From: an uncultured Lachnospiraceae bacterium
GTDB lineage: Bacteria > Bacillota_A > Clostridia > Lachnospirales > Lachnospiraceae
Length of the DNA: 7,099 bases
NCBI GenBank assembly: GCA_902795715.1
Contig: CADBME010000132.1
Location: 1 to 7,099, forward strand
Direction of reading: 5' to 3'
Made by a program: the position numbers and the translations under genes. Below the pieces are notes generated by a model. That model was not told the origin of the DNA and made no database searches. It worked only from the letters and a program-made list of their open reading frames with translations. Below are positions 1-6,979 of the stretch, one piece after another (the first letter of the stretch is position 1; each line of letters begins with the position of its first letter).

Positions 1-1102
1 AAAGTACTGTATTGCTTGTCGCCCGAAGCCCTGGGTAACTCACATATTGGTAAACGAGGCACGAATCAGTATCAAATTTATTGTTATAGATCGCATATCT
101 AGCCGTGGGATACAGTGATTTGGGGTGATAGGACATATATCCTTCCAAAAGGTGATTAGCACAGACATCCAGAGCAACCAACGAAGCCCATTTGCGAGCA
201 ATACCCCAGTCCCCCTTCAAGTCCTTTATATTGGATTCTTTGCATACCAGATGAGCAAAAAAATCGTACACTTTCTCTTTATCATGCATTTCCTGACTCT
301 TTTTGTATGCACCTGCTTGGAAAGAAGCAAATGTACCCACCTCGTCTACCATAAAACAAGAATAACTATCCTCGACCAGATTATATTCTGCTTCATTCAG
401 TGCCAGCATCCACCCTAAAAACATAGGATCTAATTCGCAACGTTCTATGCTGACAAGGACCCCGCCGGGTTTTAAAAGGTTTATCAGATTATCCCTGTAT
501 GTTACATACAAATTCTTGTGTCTCTCTGCAACCTCTCGCAATGAATAGGACATATCCAGAGATGTACTGTCTGCATTCTCATGAAGTGTCCGGCTAGAGA
601 AAACGGTATCGTATTTACCTATCATTTTTGCTACTGGGGTTCTTTTAAACACAATATTTTCAACACCAAGTTTTTTTGCAAGTTTCTGAGCTAAATCGAT
701 TGATTTATCAAATCGGTCAATCGAGACAATTGTTTTCTCAGGAAATGTTCTGGCCAAGAAGCAGGACACGAGACCAATATCACATCCGATCTCTAGGATA
801 CTATCCCCGAAATACTGCTTATGGTCCAGAATCCAATTGAAAAGTTCCTCAAGATAATTGTAATCAAATCCACCTGTAAATGTTAAAGAAAAGTTGAAAT
901 TCGTATTTTTCTTATTATAGAGGGCTTTATCCAACCCTTTCTTATTGTCACCGCGATCCTGAACAATTTTCCTGATCTGCTGCACATATGACGGGCCGCT
1001 TACCAGTTCACATCTATCAAATAGGGTTTTAAAGTCATCTGCCGGCGCAATCCCAACCTCGGCAAAATAGGAATTTATGAGCTCTCTGTTTACGTCCAAC
1101 AT
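1..1102 (-). CDS. Class I SAM-dependent methyltransferase, 3' end truncated by the window
   Basis: An open minus-strand frame runs from ATG at 1102 off the left edge: 367 codons are visible with no stop. An in-frame TGA at 1112-1114 rules out an earlier start, and GAGGG lies about 5-6 nt upstream of the ATG. Residues 1-95 are mostly helical and unassigned. The Rossmann SAM-binding motif I is ILEIGCDIGLVS (102-113), a variant of ExGxGxG. The acidic motif II end of strand 2 is IVSIDR (125-130). A later KPGGVLVSIE (211-220) is the usual strand before the C-terminal sheet. The remaining 150 residues are not assigned. No NPPY/DPPY (N6-A/N4-C DNA methylase) or PC cysteine motif (C5 methylase) is visible, so a DNA-modification role is not supported; small-molecule, protein or RNA methylation are all open. 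The gene lies downstream of the McrBC-like pair on the same strand, separated by 77 bp with a stem-loop, so it may be read through at reduced level or have its own promoter. Confidence 0.85.
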   Translation of the reverse strand, partial: MLDVNRELINSYFAEVGIAPADDFKTLFDRCELVSGPSYVQQIRKIVQDRGDNKKGLDKALYNKKNTNFNFSLTFTGGFDYNYLEELFNWILDHKQYFGDSILEIGCDIGLVSCFLARTFPEKTIVSIDRFDKSIDLAQKLAKKLGVENIVFKRTPVAKMIGKYDTVFSSRTLHENADSTSLDMSYSLREVAERHKNLYVTYRDNLINLLKPGGVLVSIERCELDPMFLGWMLALNEAEYNLVEDSYSCFMVDEVGTFASFQAGAYKKSQEMHDKEKVYDFFAHLVCKESNIKDLKGDWGIARKWASLVALDVCANHLLEGYMSYHPKSLYPTARYAIYNNKFDTDSCLVYQYVSYPGLRATSNTVL

Positions 1103-1132: not shown

Positions 1133-1166
1133 TAGAGGAACCCTCCTAGTAAATAGGGTTCCTCTA
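1133..1166 (-). terminator. Intercistronic 12-bp stem-loop (weak terminator or processing site)
   Basis: A perfect inverted repeat pairs 1133-1144 with 1155-1166 around a 10-nt loop, directly after the nuclease stop codon (1180) and before the methyltransferase ribosome site. In the leftward transcript the stem is followed by about eight mixed bases and then TTTTT (1120-1124), so the U-tract is displaced. It could be a leaky intrinsic terminator or a 3'-end stabilising hairpin that sets the ratio of methyltransferase to nuclease message. Confidence 0.6.
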
Positions 1167-1179
1167 TACGCTGAAGCAA

Positions 1180-3480
1180 TTATTTAAGCACAATGCGCTT
1201 TTCTTTTAGAACAGCTTTAATTTGTCTACGTCGTTCTCTGTTCATCCCTGGGATCTGATTTAGATCTTCCTCTGAAAAATTAGGTACCAAATCTCCGACA
1301 GTCTCTATCCCCGCTACAGAAAGGAACTCGCGTAATCCCTTTTGTTCCCTTTTGAATGAAAGCTCTGATATTTTAATTGCTTTTTTGTCTATTACTTTTG
1401 TCTCCCTACTATGAGGCAACTTCAGGGCTTTTTCATCTGATGTTTCTCTTTCTGAAACAGGAGTTTCTTTCTGTTTTTTTCTGGTATCCTCCGGAGGAAT
1501 AACAGTAAAAGTACTAATAATTTTATATTCCGATTCTGGTTCCGGCTTTATAACCTCATCCTTTTTTAGAGCTGTTTCAGTATTACGGGGTTCCAAGGCA
1601 TAGTTATAGTGTTTCTCCAAAGCACCTTCATACCTCCCTAAAACATCTCGCATAAGTACCCTGTGCAGGTCTCTATTATCCTCCGAATTTTCTGTTAATG
1701 TGAGGATTTCTGCACGTGGTCTTATTGCTGATGGGTCCGGTCCAAACTCGTATATGTTTGTTAACCCGTCCAAGTCTTTGTCCGACTGTCCATTCATTAT
1801 GCAGAGACCAACGATTTCGTCGTCTTTATCAAAAGGAGTGACCGAGAAAAGATATTTGAAAACAAGCTTTGAGACTTCTTTGCTCTTTACTGTTTTGATT
1901 CTGCTGAATTTTGCATCAGCAATTAAATACTTGGCCCCCTTTCTCTCTCCGCTCTCATACTTGATTAAATAATCCGGAGTATAATATTTGAGCCCACGTG
2001 ATGAATAATAGCTTTCTTCCTCTCTCGCCAATCCTATGGATGTATTCCTATATAATCCAATTTCTGTTATATCCCGCTTATCCTCACTGTAAATCACCGG
2101 TTGGAAGAATATGGTTACGCTGTTTTCACCATTTTCCAAATGAAAGTAATTGCAACATACAGTATTCTCATACCTGGCGGAACTTGGCAATACATAGTTT
2201 TTTCTATCTGCCTTAGCCAAAGTATAATGGGCATCCTTAAAATACTGGAGGAGTTTTGCCAATACATATACTTCATAAAGGTATGTCACCTTTAAAAATG
2301 ATAGAATATACCTTGTTTCGTCAGAAGCAAATGCACCATCCCGGAACCATGATACAATACAGTCATATATTTGGTGATACTGTGGGACTGCCTTAAAAAT
2401 AGGAGTTAAACGAGGTACCGCTTTCAGTTTGAAAGGTTTGATATGGAAGATGTTAGAATACTGTGCAAATAAACTATTATAGTCATGCCTCAATTCTCCA
2501 ACATCCTTTTTTACCTGCTCGAGCCGCATTAACGTATCGGCGAAGATAAAATAAGAAGAAGATATATACCCTTTTGTTTCGTATGTTTTTCCTGAAAGCT
2601 TCTGAATTCTTTTGTTCAGATTCTCATCTAATTTTTTAAGCTCATCACATACCAACGCTAAAAAACCGTGGATTACCTGGTTCTCATATATGTCAAATGA
2701 CTTTACGTTAGAAGTAACTAAAGTTTTATTCGGTAAATAATTGCTTCTACCTACACGAATTCCGGTTGACGTTGCAACTCTCTGCATTTCTTCAGGGTGC
2801 TGTGAAATATACTGCAACGTGTTTGCAGAAACATACATCAGCTTTTCGAAACGATCTACTCTCTCTTCAGGTACCACCTTGAAACGACTATTTGCCTTGA
2901 AATACCTATAGTTTTCTTTAAATATTGCTGATATTCTCTTAAGCAAAATCACAGACGATTCAATAGTTTTATTGCTATTCTCTTTTAAGTCAACAGCATC
3001 CTTTGAGTACGGTTTACCCGAATAAAGCAATGTTTCGTTATTATCACGTATGAACTGTGCCATTCTCCGGACAGATTCATTAGTTCTCGTACGTGGAACA
3101 AGTACCTGAATAAATTCCGTCTCTAAGAGTCTATTTTCATCCCCCTGATCGCAGACTACAGAAAACTGTACAAACCCATAGCATTCATAAAAGATTTTAT
3201 CCTTTAAATCGGAATCATCAAACACTATTTCGATAGAATCTTTACTTCTGGATGAGTAATAACGAAGCTCATTACCATTCAAAAATAACTGAATCCTTTT
3301 GTACTCCTCTATTTGTGGCAACAGTAGCCGGGCTTTATAACTTTTATCGCAATAAACGTAAAATGAGGAATCGCTTAAATCTTCCAGCATTGAAGTGTCA
3401 ATCCGATGGTCAAATAGAGGTACTTCCTGTACTATATTGCTTTCATCTGAGATCAGTATTAATTTTCCCTCGTCCATCAT
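1180..3480 (-). CDS. DUF2357/McrC-like PD-(D/E)XK nuclease with RNAP alpha-CTD-like C-terminal HhH domain
   Basis: Predicted endonuclease subunit of an McrBC-type NTP-dependent system, 766 aa against roughly 350 aa for E. coli McrC. Residues 1-130 look beta-rich. A helical DUF2357-type region follows, with the family-like FDIYENQVIHGFL at 262-274. The nuclease core contains a helix LYEVYVLAKL (401-410, possible conserved E403), then TPDYLI (501-506, D503) and IADAKF (520-525, D522 and K524). This gives a D-x(18)-D-x-K arrangement typical of PD-(D/E)XK enzymes, so the active site looks intact. Residues about 630-700 are a charged, low-order linker. Residues about 704-763 resemble the DNA-binding C-terminal domain of the RNA polymerase alpha subunit (ISELSF, VGDLV, then IPGMNRERRRQIKAVL). 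The start is one of two tandem ATGs (3480 or 3477); GAGG at 3486-3489 is 5 or 8 nt away, slightly favouring the second. It is almost certainly co-transcribed and translationally coupled with the NTPase gene upstream. Target (modified DNA, other DNA, or RNA) cannot be read from sequence. Confidence 0.85.
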   Translation of the reverse strand: MMDEGKLILISDESNIVQEVPLFDHRIDTSMLEDLSDSSFYVYCDKSYKARLLLPQIEEYKRIQLFLNGNELRYYSSRSKDSIEIVFDDSDLKDKIFYECYGFVQFSVVCDQGDENRLLETEFIQVLVPRTRTNESVRRMAQFIRDNNETLLYSGKPYSKDAVDLKENSNKTIESSVILLKRISAIFKENYRYFKANSRFKVVPEERVDRFEKLMYVSANTLQYISQHPEEMQRVATSTGIRVGRSNYLPNKTLVTSNVKSFDIYENQVIHGFLALVCDELKKLDENLNKRIQKLSGKTYETKGYISSSYFIFADTLMRLEQVKKDVGELRHDYNSLFAQYSNIFHIKPFKLKAVPRLTPIFKAVPQYHQIYDCIVSWFRDGAFASDETRYILSFLKVTYLYEVYVLAKLLQYFKDAHYTLAKADRKNYVLPSSARYENTVCCNYFHLENGENSVTIFFQPVIYSEDKRDITEIGLYRNTSIGLAREEESYYSSRGLKYYTPDYLIKYESGERKGAKYLIADAKFSRIKTVKSKEVSKLVFKYLFSVTPFDKDDEIVGLCIMNGQSDKDLDGLTNIYEFGPDPSAIRPRAEILTLTENSEDNRDLHRVLMRDVLGRYEGALEKHYNYALEPRNTETALKKDEVIKPEPESEYKIISTFTVIPPEDTRKKQKETPVSERETSDEKALKLPHSRETKVIDKKAIKISELSFKREQKGLREFLSVAGIETVGDLVPNFSEEDLNQIPGMNRERRRQIKAVLKEKRIVLK

Positions 3481-3485
3481 TTAAA

Positions 3486-3489
3486 CCTC
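3486..3489 (-). promoter_or_regulatory. Ribosome site of the nuclease gene overlapping the upstream stop codon
   Basis: On the minus strand the upstream gene ends TGA (3488-3490), and GAGG (3486-3489) overlaps that stop, followed by TTTAA and two ATGs. Ribosomes finishing the NTPase are placed directly on the nuclease start, an arrangement typical of subunits made in a fixed ratio. Confidence 0.65.
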
Positions 3490-6121
3490 AGGCAAAGAAC
3501 TGATAGTAAAACATTGTGTCATTGCCTTTACTAATGATATCGTTCAGGATTTCAGCTGACATTCTCATATTCTTTTCCTGGCAATACGAAGCGATGGCGC
3601 TGAGGGCTTTCGAATATTCTTCTCCACTCCCATCTATATGTGGTAGTATCTTTTGAGAGACAGCATAATCAAGAGCATCTATCGCAGGATCATATCCGTC
3701 TTCGCTGATGAACAACTTTTGTGCTGTAGCCCAATATTTTCTTATAGCATTATCCGTTCTCTGGCTTACAGAGACATTAATCTCACTGAATCTCTTTTTA
3801 ATGCTGTCATAAATATCTTTTACCTCTCCAGCTTTTAAGAGATCATCCTCATCTGTAATCGGAGCCGCAAAAACTTTTTGGAACTCTGACCAGCTGATTC
3901 TCTCAAAAGACTCATTAAAATAATCCGAATCCGTTTTCATGCTAGGAGCAACCTTCGGAAGCTTGATCACCCAAGCTCTATCGACCAGGCGAGGTGAAAG
4001 AGATTCTGTTGTGTGGTCATTATTAATAGTTGCAACAAAGCGTAAGTTCTCAGGAATAGCATAGGAATAATCATTACCGAGATTAATTCTGTTATCTTTA
4101 CCCGTAACATCGTCGCATACGCTCATAAAATCTGCCCAATAGTACTCCATAGGACTCAGATTAGCCTCATCAAGAAGTATTATGAACGGGAGATCGGTCG
4201 AGTTTCCCTTCGCCTCCCTGTCCAGTATGTTAAGGCAGTCGAATAGCTGTCGATTGTTCTTATCAAAGGTTTTTGTCAGCGGGTTGAAGTAGCCTACAAA
4301 ATCTCTTTTTGATGTCCATCCTCGTTCTACCGGAATATTAATAAACCGATTTGGGTTAAAAGTGTCCTGTCCTGTCATACCCAAGCTTGCTTTGATATCA
4401 CGCAGTCCAAAAGTTGAACCCAGTATCTTGCAGATAGAGGTTTTTCCTGTCCCCGGCTCACCGGAAAAAACTGTCAGAAAGCTCTGAGCATAGCATATCA
4501 AAATATTTGTGACTGTATTATACTTATAATTGGGTCTGATCGTACGAATACGCTCTATTAGGTACTCTTTAAGTTCCTCGCCTTTTTTCTGCGAAATCGA
4601 TAAGCTTTTTACTGCCGAAAGTCTGGAATCATAATCATCCTTTTTCTGATTGTTTTCCCAATCTGCAGCATTCTGCAGCATACGGTTTGCCAAAAGACCA
4701 TCATATGCAATGTGCATTGCATTTTCTGTTCTGTTTCTAAAGAAAGTGTCAATACGATCCTTTAAATTTTCAAAATCTTTTTCCTGATAAATATAACTAT
4801 TTCGAAGCACTTCATACTGTTTCTGTACTTTTTCCAATTCCTGTTGTGCATTAGCCAGGTCAATAACAGTTTTCAGTGTTTTACTTGTTTCTTTCAGCTC
4901 GTCATCCAGACGGCTAATCTCATCCTTTTTCTGCTGAATCTCATCCTCATACCCGTCTAATAGACTTTCGGCGTATTCATGTTGCTTCGGAATATCAACT
5001 TTCTTCTCTTCCAGTGCCTTTACTTCTTCATCAAGACTCTTCACATTCTGGAGGAGACTGTCACGTTCTGCCTCTTTATCTCTAATAATAACAGATAGCT
5101 TTTGATAACGGGGGATTTTCTCCAGGAATGACTGATCAGAAGCCAGCTTATCCATAAGGATTGCATATTCATTAGGATACTTTTCGAGCAAATCAGGGAT
5201 ACACTCTGCAACAAACTGGAACGTTTTATCGAGCTTATCCTCATCCAGCATTAAATCCTTTAACTTGTCGTACCTTTGTTCTCTGACTTCTTCCGGAATT
5301 TCCGGTCCCATAAAAGCAGAGCCTTCATAATCGTCGATTACTTCTTGTACATTGCTAAGGTCAAGCTTTCCATCTATAAAATGCTCACTGCTAATCGTAC
5401 GTTTAAATTCTGAAATAATCTGTTGTGTAGGAAGAAAATCGATCGGGACCTTTTTGCATACTGACTCATTGATTTCAATAAACTGCTGCTGTTCATCATC
5501 GAACCTACCAAGTGTAATAGTATGATTGATGACTGTTTCTTTATATTCATACCCCCATATGATGTATTTCTGTTTTTGAAGCCCCGTATTAATATAGTAA
5601 CTGCGGTCTGTGTCATTCATTTCGATCGTAAATGGCCCCAGTACAGTCTGTTTGAATTTATCCCCTGTTAGACAAATTACAACTTTTAACCCCCTAAACA
5701 CATTTGAATCATTTACCTTTACAATCGGGCTGGTTTGATAATTATTGATCAGTTGAGACTCAGTCAATTTATAGTAATAGTTAAGCGAATCCAAGTCTCT
5801 GATTCTATTCTCTGCAAATAGCGTATCAAGTTCTGCTTTGTAACCCGTCTGATTCCTCTCACCATATTGATTTATATTGTCCTCTAAATCATCCAGCTCA
5901 AAATCTATTACCTGATATGAACCATCTGCAAAATAATCATAAGGTTTTTTTCTAATATCATTAAAATATAGATTGATATCCCCTTTCTCAGATTCAGGCA
6001 GTATTTCTTTCCTGTCAAAAGTCGTCAAAAAATGTATGTCATTATGTACGACTTCGCATAATGGTATTATATTGACGAAACTATAATTCCGTATTTTAAT
6101 TTTGCCGATAAATGTACCCAT
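3488..6121 (-). CDS. McrB-like AAA+ NTPase with N-terminal unknown region and long coiled coil
   Basis: Predicted motor subunit, 877 aa against about 459 aa for E. coli McrB. Residues 1-230 are mixed but strand-rich (opening IGKIKIRNYSFVNIIPL) and match no domain I recognise; this is where McrB proteins carry their target-recognition module. Residues about 340-460 are a heptad-rich, highly charged coiled coil with a break near DIPKQ (376-380). The C-terminal AAA+ core has Walker A GEPGTGKT (554-561), a conserved RGW..KRDFVGYFNPLT segment (600-616), Walker B FIILLDEANLS (646-656, D651/E652), and sensor 1 ATINND (697-702), which sits where McrB has its NTAD GTPase signature. SPRLVDRA (709-716) supplies arginine-finger candidates. 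All key residues are present. The start has AAAAGGAG (6129-6136) 7 nt upstream. It is the first large gene of the cassette and is followed after 7 bp by the nuclease. By analogy it would form hexamers that power the nuclease. GTP versus ATP preference is uncertain. The coiled coil recalls the CoCoNuT subclass of McrBC systems, but membership is inferred. Confidence 0.88.
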   Translation of the reverse strand: MGTFIGKIKIRNYSFVNIIPLCEVVHNDIHFLTTFDRKEILPESEKGDINLYFNDIRKKPYDYFADGSYQVIDFELDDLEDNINQYGERNQTGYKAELDTLFAENRIRDLDSLNYYYKLTESQLINNYQTSPIVKVNDSNVFRGLKVVICLTGDKFKQTVLGPFTIEMNDTDRSYYINTGLQKQKYIIWGYEYKETVINHTITLGRFDDEQQQFIEINESVCKKVPIDFLPTQQIISEFKRTISSEHFIDGKLDLSNVQEVIDDYEGSAFMGPEIPEEVREQRYDKLKDLMLDEDKLDKTFQFVAECIPDLLEKYPNEYAILMDKLASDQSFLEKIPRYQKLSVIIRDKEAERDSLLQNVKSLDEEVKALEEKKVDIPKQHEYAESLLDGYEDEIQQKKDEISRLDDELKETSKTLKTVIDLANAQQELEKVQKQYEVLRNSYIYQEKDFENLKDRIDTFFRNRTENAMHIAYDGLLANRMLQNAADWENNQKKDDYDSRLSAVKSLSISQKKGEELKEYLIERIRTIRPNYKYNTVTNILICYAQSFLTVFSGEPGTGKTSICKILGSTFGLRDIKASLGMTGQDTFNPNRFINIPVERGWTSKRDFVGYFNPLTKTFDKNNRQLFDCLNILDREAKGNSTDLPFIILLDEANLSPMEYYWADFMSVCDDVTGKDNRINLGNDYSYAIPENLRFVATINNDHTTESLSPRLVDRAWVIKLPKVAPSMKTDSDYFNESFERISWSEFQKVFAAPITDEDDLLKAGEVKDIYDSIKKRFSEINVSVSQRTDNAIRKYWATAQKLFISEDGYDPAIDALDYAVSQKILPHIDGSGEEYSKALSAIASYCQEKNMRMSAEILNDIISKGNDTMFYYQFFA

Positions 6122-6382: not shown

Positions 6383-6979
6383 ATGAATATATCCTTTTTA
6401 GATTATACTGATCTAGTGAACAGGACTGCAATTGCACTTCAGGAAAATAAAGAATATATATCACATGTCGAAGCAGCGACTGCTGCAGCATATATCAGAG
6501 ACATTGCTATAAAAGAACCCGGCGATGCATTGATTTATTGTGCAGCTCTGAATCTCCTGAACACATATGTCAAACAAAAGGATTCGCAAATCGGATACAG
6601 ATTTAAAAATAAGCTTGGATACTATCTCTCAATTATTGACAACGCCCATATTGATAACATTATTGTTGATTTTCAATACGACAAAGGGGCAACTCTTGTC
6701 ATAACACAAGTTGGCCACCTGCAGTTCAGCTTCCACAATGTAAGAAGATATGAATCAGAAAGACTTATTGAGAAGAGTGAGAAGCGTATCATTCAATTGG
6801 AATGGGACGGCATTAGGAAGCAGCAATGTGCTTCGTCCATATTCAAAATGGCGATTCAATCCCCTGTTGGATGCACTAACCTGACCTATAGAGGTAAGAA
6901 CCTGGCTGAACGAGTTGAAAAAACAGTGAACAATTTCAACAAAGGGATCGTTAAAATAGAAGAAATACTTTTAAAATAA
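6383..6979 (+). CDS. Uncharacterised 198-aa protein, divergent from the McrBC-like cassette
   Basis: A complete frame from ATG 6383 to TAA 6977-6979, with a strong promoter upstream and GAGG (6369-6372) 10 nt before the start, slightly long spacing. I do not recognise the family. The protein is soluble, with no signal peptide or membrane segment. Residues 1-70 look helical (an alanine-rich stretch near 29-37). A beta-rich middle follows (IDNIIVDFQYDK, then TLVITQVGHLQFSFHNVRR, about 91-123), and a basic, helical C-terminal part carries QLEWDGIRKQQCA. The VGHLQFSFHNVRR strand pair, with two histidines and adjacent arginines, and the WDGIRKQQ segment look like the most constrained parts, but no catalytic assignment is justified. 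The position next to a predicted restriction cassette makes an accessory, regulatory or independent defence/toxin role possible. It is equally possible that it is an unrelated neighbour. Confidence 0.8.
   Translation: MNISFLDYTDLVNRTAIALQENKEYISHVEAATAAAYIRDIAIKEPGDALIYCAALNLLNTYVKQKDSQIGYRFKNKLGYYLSIIDNAHIDNIIVDFQYDKGATLVITQVGHLQFSFHNVRRYESERLIEKSEKRIIQLEWDGIRKQQCASSIFKMAIQSPVGCTNLTYRGKNLAERVEKTVNNFNKGIVKIEEILLK

Follow-up and report, generated by a model that had tools for sequence, protein, structure and literature searches.

The 7,099-nucleotide stretch of an uncultured Lachnospiraceae bacterium analysed here (contig CADBME010000132.1; hereafter the window) carries a two-gene McrBC-type system, and its McrC-like nuclease ends in a domain resembling the C-terminal domain (CTD) of the RNA polymerase alpha subunit, RpoA. 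This tail was homologous to the alpha-CTD, shared its predicted fold, clustered in one branch of McrC proteins and was under sequence constraint; it had lost key DNA-binding residues of alpha and shared an arginine cluster with its relatives. The tail may be a captured, remodelled alpha-CTD that serves as an arginine-rich nucleic-acid grip on the nuclease, a reading in which our confidence is evenly balanced. The parts of McrC are as follows.

1180..3480, minus strand: McrC-like protein, 766 residues, intact open reading frame
3091..3480, minus strand: all-beta front of McrC, residues 1-130
1630..3090, minus strand: DUF2357 helical region and PD-(D/E)xK nuclease, McrC residues 131-617
1909..1977, minus strand: nuclease core motif, P502 D503 ... 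D522 A523 K524
1396..1629, minus strand: flexible charged linker, McrC residues 618-695
1183..1395, minus strand: predicted alpha-CTD-like domain, McrC residues 696-766
1201..1242, minus strand: second hairpin and last helix of the tail, residues 747-760

The P-D ... D-A-K nuclease motif was invariant in two alignments of 30 and 53 rows.

Identity of the tail and its linker

The first-pass annotation had placed an alpha-CTD-like helix-hairpin-helix (HhH) domain at positions 1180-1377, which correspond to McrC residues 701-766 and the stop codon; the predicted domain starts slightly earlier, at about residue 696. The stretches it quoted (ISELSF, GIETVGDLV, IPGM and RRRQIKAVL) were all found in the open reading frame, and the profile searches and a whole-domain structural match agreed with its assignment. 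RpoA was the sole family reached by profile searches with the tail. The hhalign value was 94 for RpoA, compared with 0.4 for RuvA and 0.5 for UvrC, and RpoA as a control gave 6.1 against the same UvrC profile. The structural match to the alpha-CTD was obtained on a second look (VIA), with the full McrC model. With the same model, Foldseek gave no match at E 0.001, and its best 50 rows included neither an alpha-CTD nor an McrC. The helices of the domain were predicted at residues 711-722, 728-731, 737-741 and 748-760. As judged by homology and the predicted whole-domain fold, the tail is alpha-CTD-like. The PF03118 score was 16.9 bits for the whole protein and 22.4 bits for the tail alone, below the curated Pfam cut-off of 23.8 bits; therefore, the tail was named alpha-CTD-like or alpha-CTD-derived, and not a PF03118 member. 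Falling under the threshold, the domain of the window would go unannotated.

Alternatively, the tail might be a generic HhH or SAM-like domain of the kind found in RuvA, UvrC and AF1548-like nucleases, with no more than a resemblance to the alpha-CTD. The sub-threshold PF03118 score is compatible with this, and Pfam also gave an HHH_5 match on the tail (E 0.0072) and AF1548-like_C in 6/53 tailed members, compared with PF03118 in 25/53. However, the profile searches reached RpoA alone, RuvA and UvrC scored no higher than 0.5 in hhalign, and the structural match spanned the whole alpha-CTD domain. A generic domain was thus already disfavoured and is very improbable.

The tail was constrained nearly as strongly as the nuclease-bearing core. 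Among 53 tailed proteins (the window and 52 of the 62 tailed proteins described below, alignment A2), the mean pairwise identity was 0.60 for the core and 0.52 for the tail, but 0.17 for the linker (residues 618-700). The model confidence was low over residues 621-695. A flexible charged linker before the domain (annotated earlier at about 630-703) was retained, but the likeness drawn to the alpha subunit did not extend to its length. The linker of alpha has roughly 15-20 residues, far fewer than that of McrC.

Remodelled surface of the tail

The residues of 59 tails were compared with those of 36 RpoA CTDs; the tails of P0012, P0026 and P0061 were missed by the tail pattern, which left 59 and not 62. 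One profile search gave 40 RpoA-sized matches, of which 11 were not retrieved. R265 and N268 were each present in 36/36 RpoA sequences and in 0/59 tails, and the tails possessed D (22), N (12), E (6), S (6), K (5), G (4) or other residues (4) in place of R265. PMC11434276 reports that DNA binding by the alpha-CTD depends critically on R265 and N268 and that both N268A and N268W abolished activation by UP elements. Further changes were found across the domain. The position of C269 was R in 44/59 tails, and that of G296, which is G in RpoA, was N in 53/59 (N747 in the window). K298 was retained in 46/59 tails and E302 in 48/59, while the window has E and Q instead. We take C269, G296, K298 and S299 to be further DNA determinants of the alpha-CTD. 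Position 261 was acidic in 36/36 RpoA sequences and in 1/59 tails, with K or N in 40/59; position 286 was E in 33/36 RpoA sequences and in 1/59 tails, with K in 48/59. These two positions presumably mark the alpha surfaces that face sigma and activators such as CAP.

The tails shared features of their own. An inserted proline, P733, was present in 59/59 tails and absent from RpoA. R748 was also present in 59/59 tails, with R or K in RpoA. R751 (R in 55 tails, K in 4) was new relative to RpoA, as was R752, which was found in 59/59 tails where RpoA is acidic, and K759 was a further common feature. Over the same columns, the mean net charge was +4.4 for the tails, +2 for the window and -1.1 for RpoA. 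The fold is thus predicted to have been preserved under a rebuilt surface. This is most simply read as a new polyanion-binding surface, and the polyanion is probably nucleic acid.

The residue comparison speaks against the mechanism suggested earlier, in so far as it means binding of UP elements or transcription factors in the manner of alpha. The other proposal, a second DNA grip for the nuclease, fared better in part: the contacts used by alpha are gone, but a different, arginine-rich surface keeps a grip plausible.

Alternatively, the tail might bind RNA polymerase, sigma or another factor, or a phage transcription factor, so that the nuclease either is directed to transcription complexes or to nascent transcripts, or detects that they have been taken over. 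The relationship to the alpha-CTD, described in PMC11434276 as a hub for transcriptional activation, is consistent with such docking. In addition, the possible OB-like McrB N-terminus and the NxD motif described below place the system near the CoCoNuTs, which are predicted to target RNA according to PMC11090510. However, the surfaces presumed to face sigma and CAP are lost (261 acidic in 1/59 tails, 286 E in 1/59), and this weighs against docking because a mimic or decoy would be expected to preserve its interface. Docking is somewhat unlikely. A related and quite unlikely proposal is that a CoCoNuT-like nuclease is linked to transcription by the captured alpha-CTD: the new surface of this domain would dock on transcription complexes or nascent RNA, or would bait phage proteins that seize the alpha-CTD, and cutting would be aimed at or triggered by phage transcription. 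If the tail does tie the nuclease to transcription, it would provide a testable recruitment mechanism for a predicted RNA-targeting branch of McrBC systems.

In the preferred reading, the remodelled grip, McrC would have captured an alpha-CTD as its last 70 residues within one branch of two-gene NxD (CoCoNuT-like) systems, most simply once, and the domain would then have been remodelled and retained. Tethered to the end of the PD-(D/E)xK nuclease by a long disordered linker, it would be a mobile and basic grip for nucleic acid, tolerant of sequence, that stops the nuclease from leaving its substrate as the McrB ring engages or moves that substrate. The system probably defends against phage.

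Distribution and origin of the tail

The McrC set comprised 121 proteins, namely the window and the best 120 of 127 matches, with only the 7990 candidates sharing most words being scored. Proteins with at least 100 residues beyond the nuclease were called tailed; P0061 was labelled tailed, yet it ends within the domain. Accordingly, 62/121 proteins were tailed and the other 59 ended near the nuclease, two of them being possible fragments. Tailed McrC was rare in the family of genome G001 (2/300 genomes, both already sources of the search profile). These counts bear out the earlier remark that the fusion is no standard feature of McrC.

The tree was built from 120 cores (P0086 was omitted for its short core) by a quick method, with SH-aLRT support only and several long branches, including that of the window. 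All 62 tailed rows grouped with one untailed row in a single 63-row branch with a support of 99. As read from these sequences, two changes are enough, the simplest pair being a gain and a loss, and the count alone gives no direction. The untailed exception, P0066, stops within the linker and was identical to L006 over its 625 residues; a six-frame scan of the P0066/L006 locus gave no tail. The five tailed genome loci were labelled Pseudoflavonifractor, Oscillibacter, Flavonifractor and, for two of them, just Clostridia or Bacillota. A tailed relative, P0078, was labelled Fibrobacter.

A six-frame scan of L001-L046 gave no separate tail gene beyond the five tailed McrC and the match in L021. 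In the P0006 region search, 79 scored candidates gave 18 proteins, all of them McrC of the same family; this search admitted only lengths of 0.55-1.75 of the query, which excludes RpoA and short proteins. No match was found in the phage collection, and the plasmids gave two weak matches of about 22% identity. Judged by titles and the starts of abstracts, no paper on this fusion of a nuclease to an alpha-CTD-like tail came up in the literature searches. The fusion is a clear case of a presumed defence nuclease having taken over a piece of the core transcription machinery, which then lost key DNA contacts, and it suggests that McrC, and not McrB alone, can carry a substrate-engaging addition.

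Two further observations were made among the tailed proteins and their genomes. In a class of 900-residue McrC (10/121), the tail was followed by another conserved domain, about 100 residues long (L001:9386-9709, for example), for which Pfam and NCBIfam gave no match and PDB nothing useful. Moreover, a short protein other than RpoA, encoded by a 194-residue frame of L054 in a tailed-McrC genome, had a strong alpha-CTD domain (50 bits).

McrB partner, neighbouring genes and known systems

The remaining features of the window are listed below.

3488..6121, minus strand: McrB-like AAA+ partner, 877 residues, directly upstream of McrC
5792..6121, minus strand: N-terminal end of the McrB gene
4742..5086, minus strand: probable coiled coil of McrB, about residues 346-460, with SMC and Rad50 profile matches
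4016..4024, minus strand: NxD form of the McrB signature motif, N700-N701-D702
1133..1166, minus strand: possible terminator, a 12-bp hairpin that separates McrC from the methyltransferase gene downstream

The McrB AAA+ gene and the McrC DUF2357/PD-(D/E)xK gene are adjacent on the minus strand, with 7 bases between McrB and the McrC start. N700 and D702 were invariant in 20 rows, the NxD motif being defined as in PMC11090510. The SMC and Rad50 profile matches covered McrB residues of about 333-500. The OB-like front of McrB and the Ig-like front of McrC were both assigned tentatively, on moderate scores. Foldseek gave no match for the McrB N-terminus at E 0.001, and residues 113-228 were assigned to no domain. 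No modified-base domain was identified. As a lead for a defence role, McrB residues 329-670 matched the PADLOC candidate PDC-M26A (9e-25).

A role in assembly was also considered: instead of binding nucleic acid, the tail would make contact with the McrC dimer or the McrB ring and regulate nuclease access. With such a long linker, the tail would be able to get to adjacent subunits. Moreover, 18/31 untailed relatives (the 31 being the loci whose called McrB exceeded 700 residues) had an additional McrB region of about 70-300 residues at the N-terminus, which was found in 0/6 tailed systems examined. However, untailed relatives retain this gene pair, and 13/31 of them are also without the region. 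A role in assembly is unlikely. The extended McrB loci were L007, L009-L011, L013-L015, L017-L025, L034 and L036, some of which share an NRxxRRK-like stretch. Pfam gave isolated matches below the cut-off on six of the extensions (DUF5405 9e-4, Peptidase_C65 0.0012). The idea that the extension is the same domain relocated was rejected: the sole match, in L021, was weak and permuted, and comparing the profiles of three extension groups with that of the tail gave a probability of at most 1.2.

The hairpin downstream of McrC had a z of -2.36, folding equally well in 6/200 shuffles, and the terminator pattern scan found none there. Beyond it lies a methyltransferase-domain protein (2-1102, minus strand, open at the window edge), the middle of which fits the PADLOC mad2 model (9.6e-16). 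It was rejected as a conserved partner, with no tblastn match at E 1e-3 beside the McrBC relatives (44 genome and 2 viral loci). A 198-residue open reading frame (6383-6979, plus strand) is divergent from the McrBC genes and had no match in Pfam, PADLOC or NCBIfam.

Compared with the RNA polymerase alpha-CTD (PF03118; PDB 1z3e, 3gfk, 1lb2), the tails are alike in whole-domain sequence and fold, in helix order, in position 297, where all 59 tails have R and RpoA has R or K, and mostly in K298 and E302. They differ in that R265 and N268 are lost, C269 and G296 are mostly swapped and the acidic 261 and 286 are altered, and in having the proline insertion, basic side chains at positions 300, 301 and 308, and the fusion to a nuclease. 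AF1548-like nucleases likewise possess an HhH-type domain at the C-terminus. That domain (PF22357) was weakly matched by the 6/53 tailed members (best 0.0016), more rarely than PF03118, and no such chain was among the PDB matches of the tail profile to E 1. To our knowledge, McrC of E. coli carries no tail. According to PMC11090510, that protein (PDB 7vsr, 6ut6, 6hz4) also differs in having no Ig-like front, and its partner uses NxxD.

The host system resembles Type I CoCoNuTs, as judged by motif and domain features. Like CnuB and CnuC as described in PMC11090510, it consists of two genes, with NxD and a probable coiled coil in McrB, and DUF2357 and PD-(D/E)xK in McrC. The CSD-like OB fold at the McrB N-terminus and the Ig-like domain of McrC in those systems may have counterparts in the tentative OB-like and Ig-like fronts of the window. 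In the main text of that paper, RpoA, alpha subunit, HhH and helix-hairpin-helix do not occur. Unlike Type I CoCoNuTs, the McrC of the window adds an alpha-CTD-like tail.
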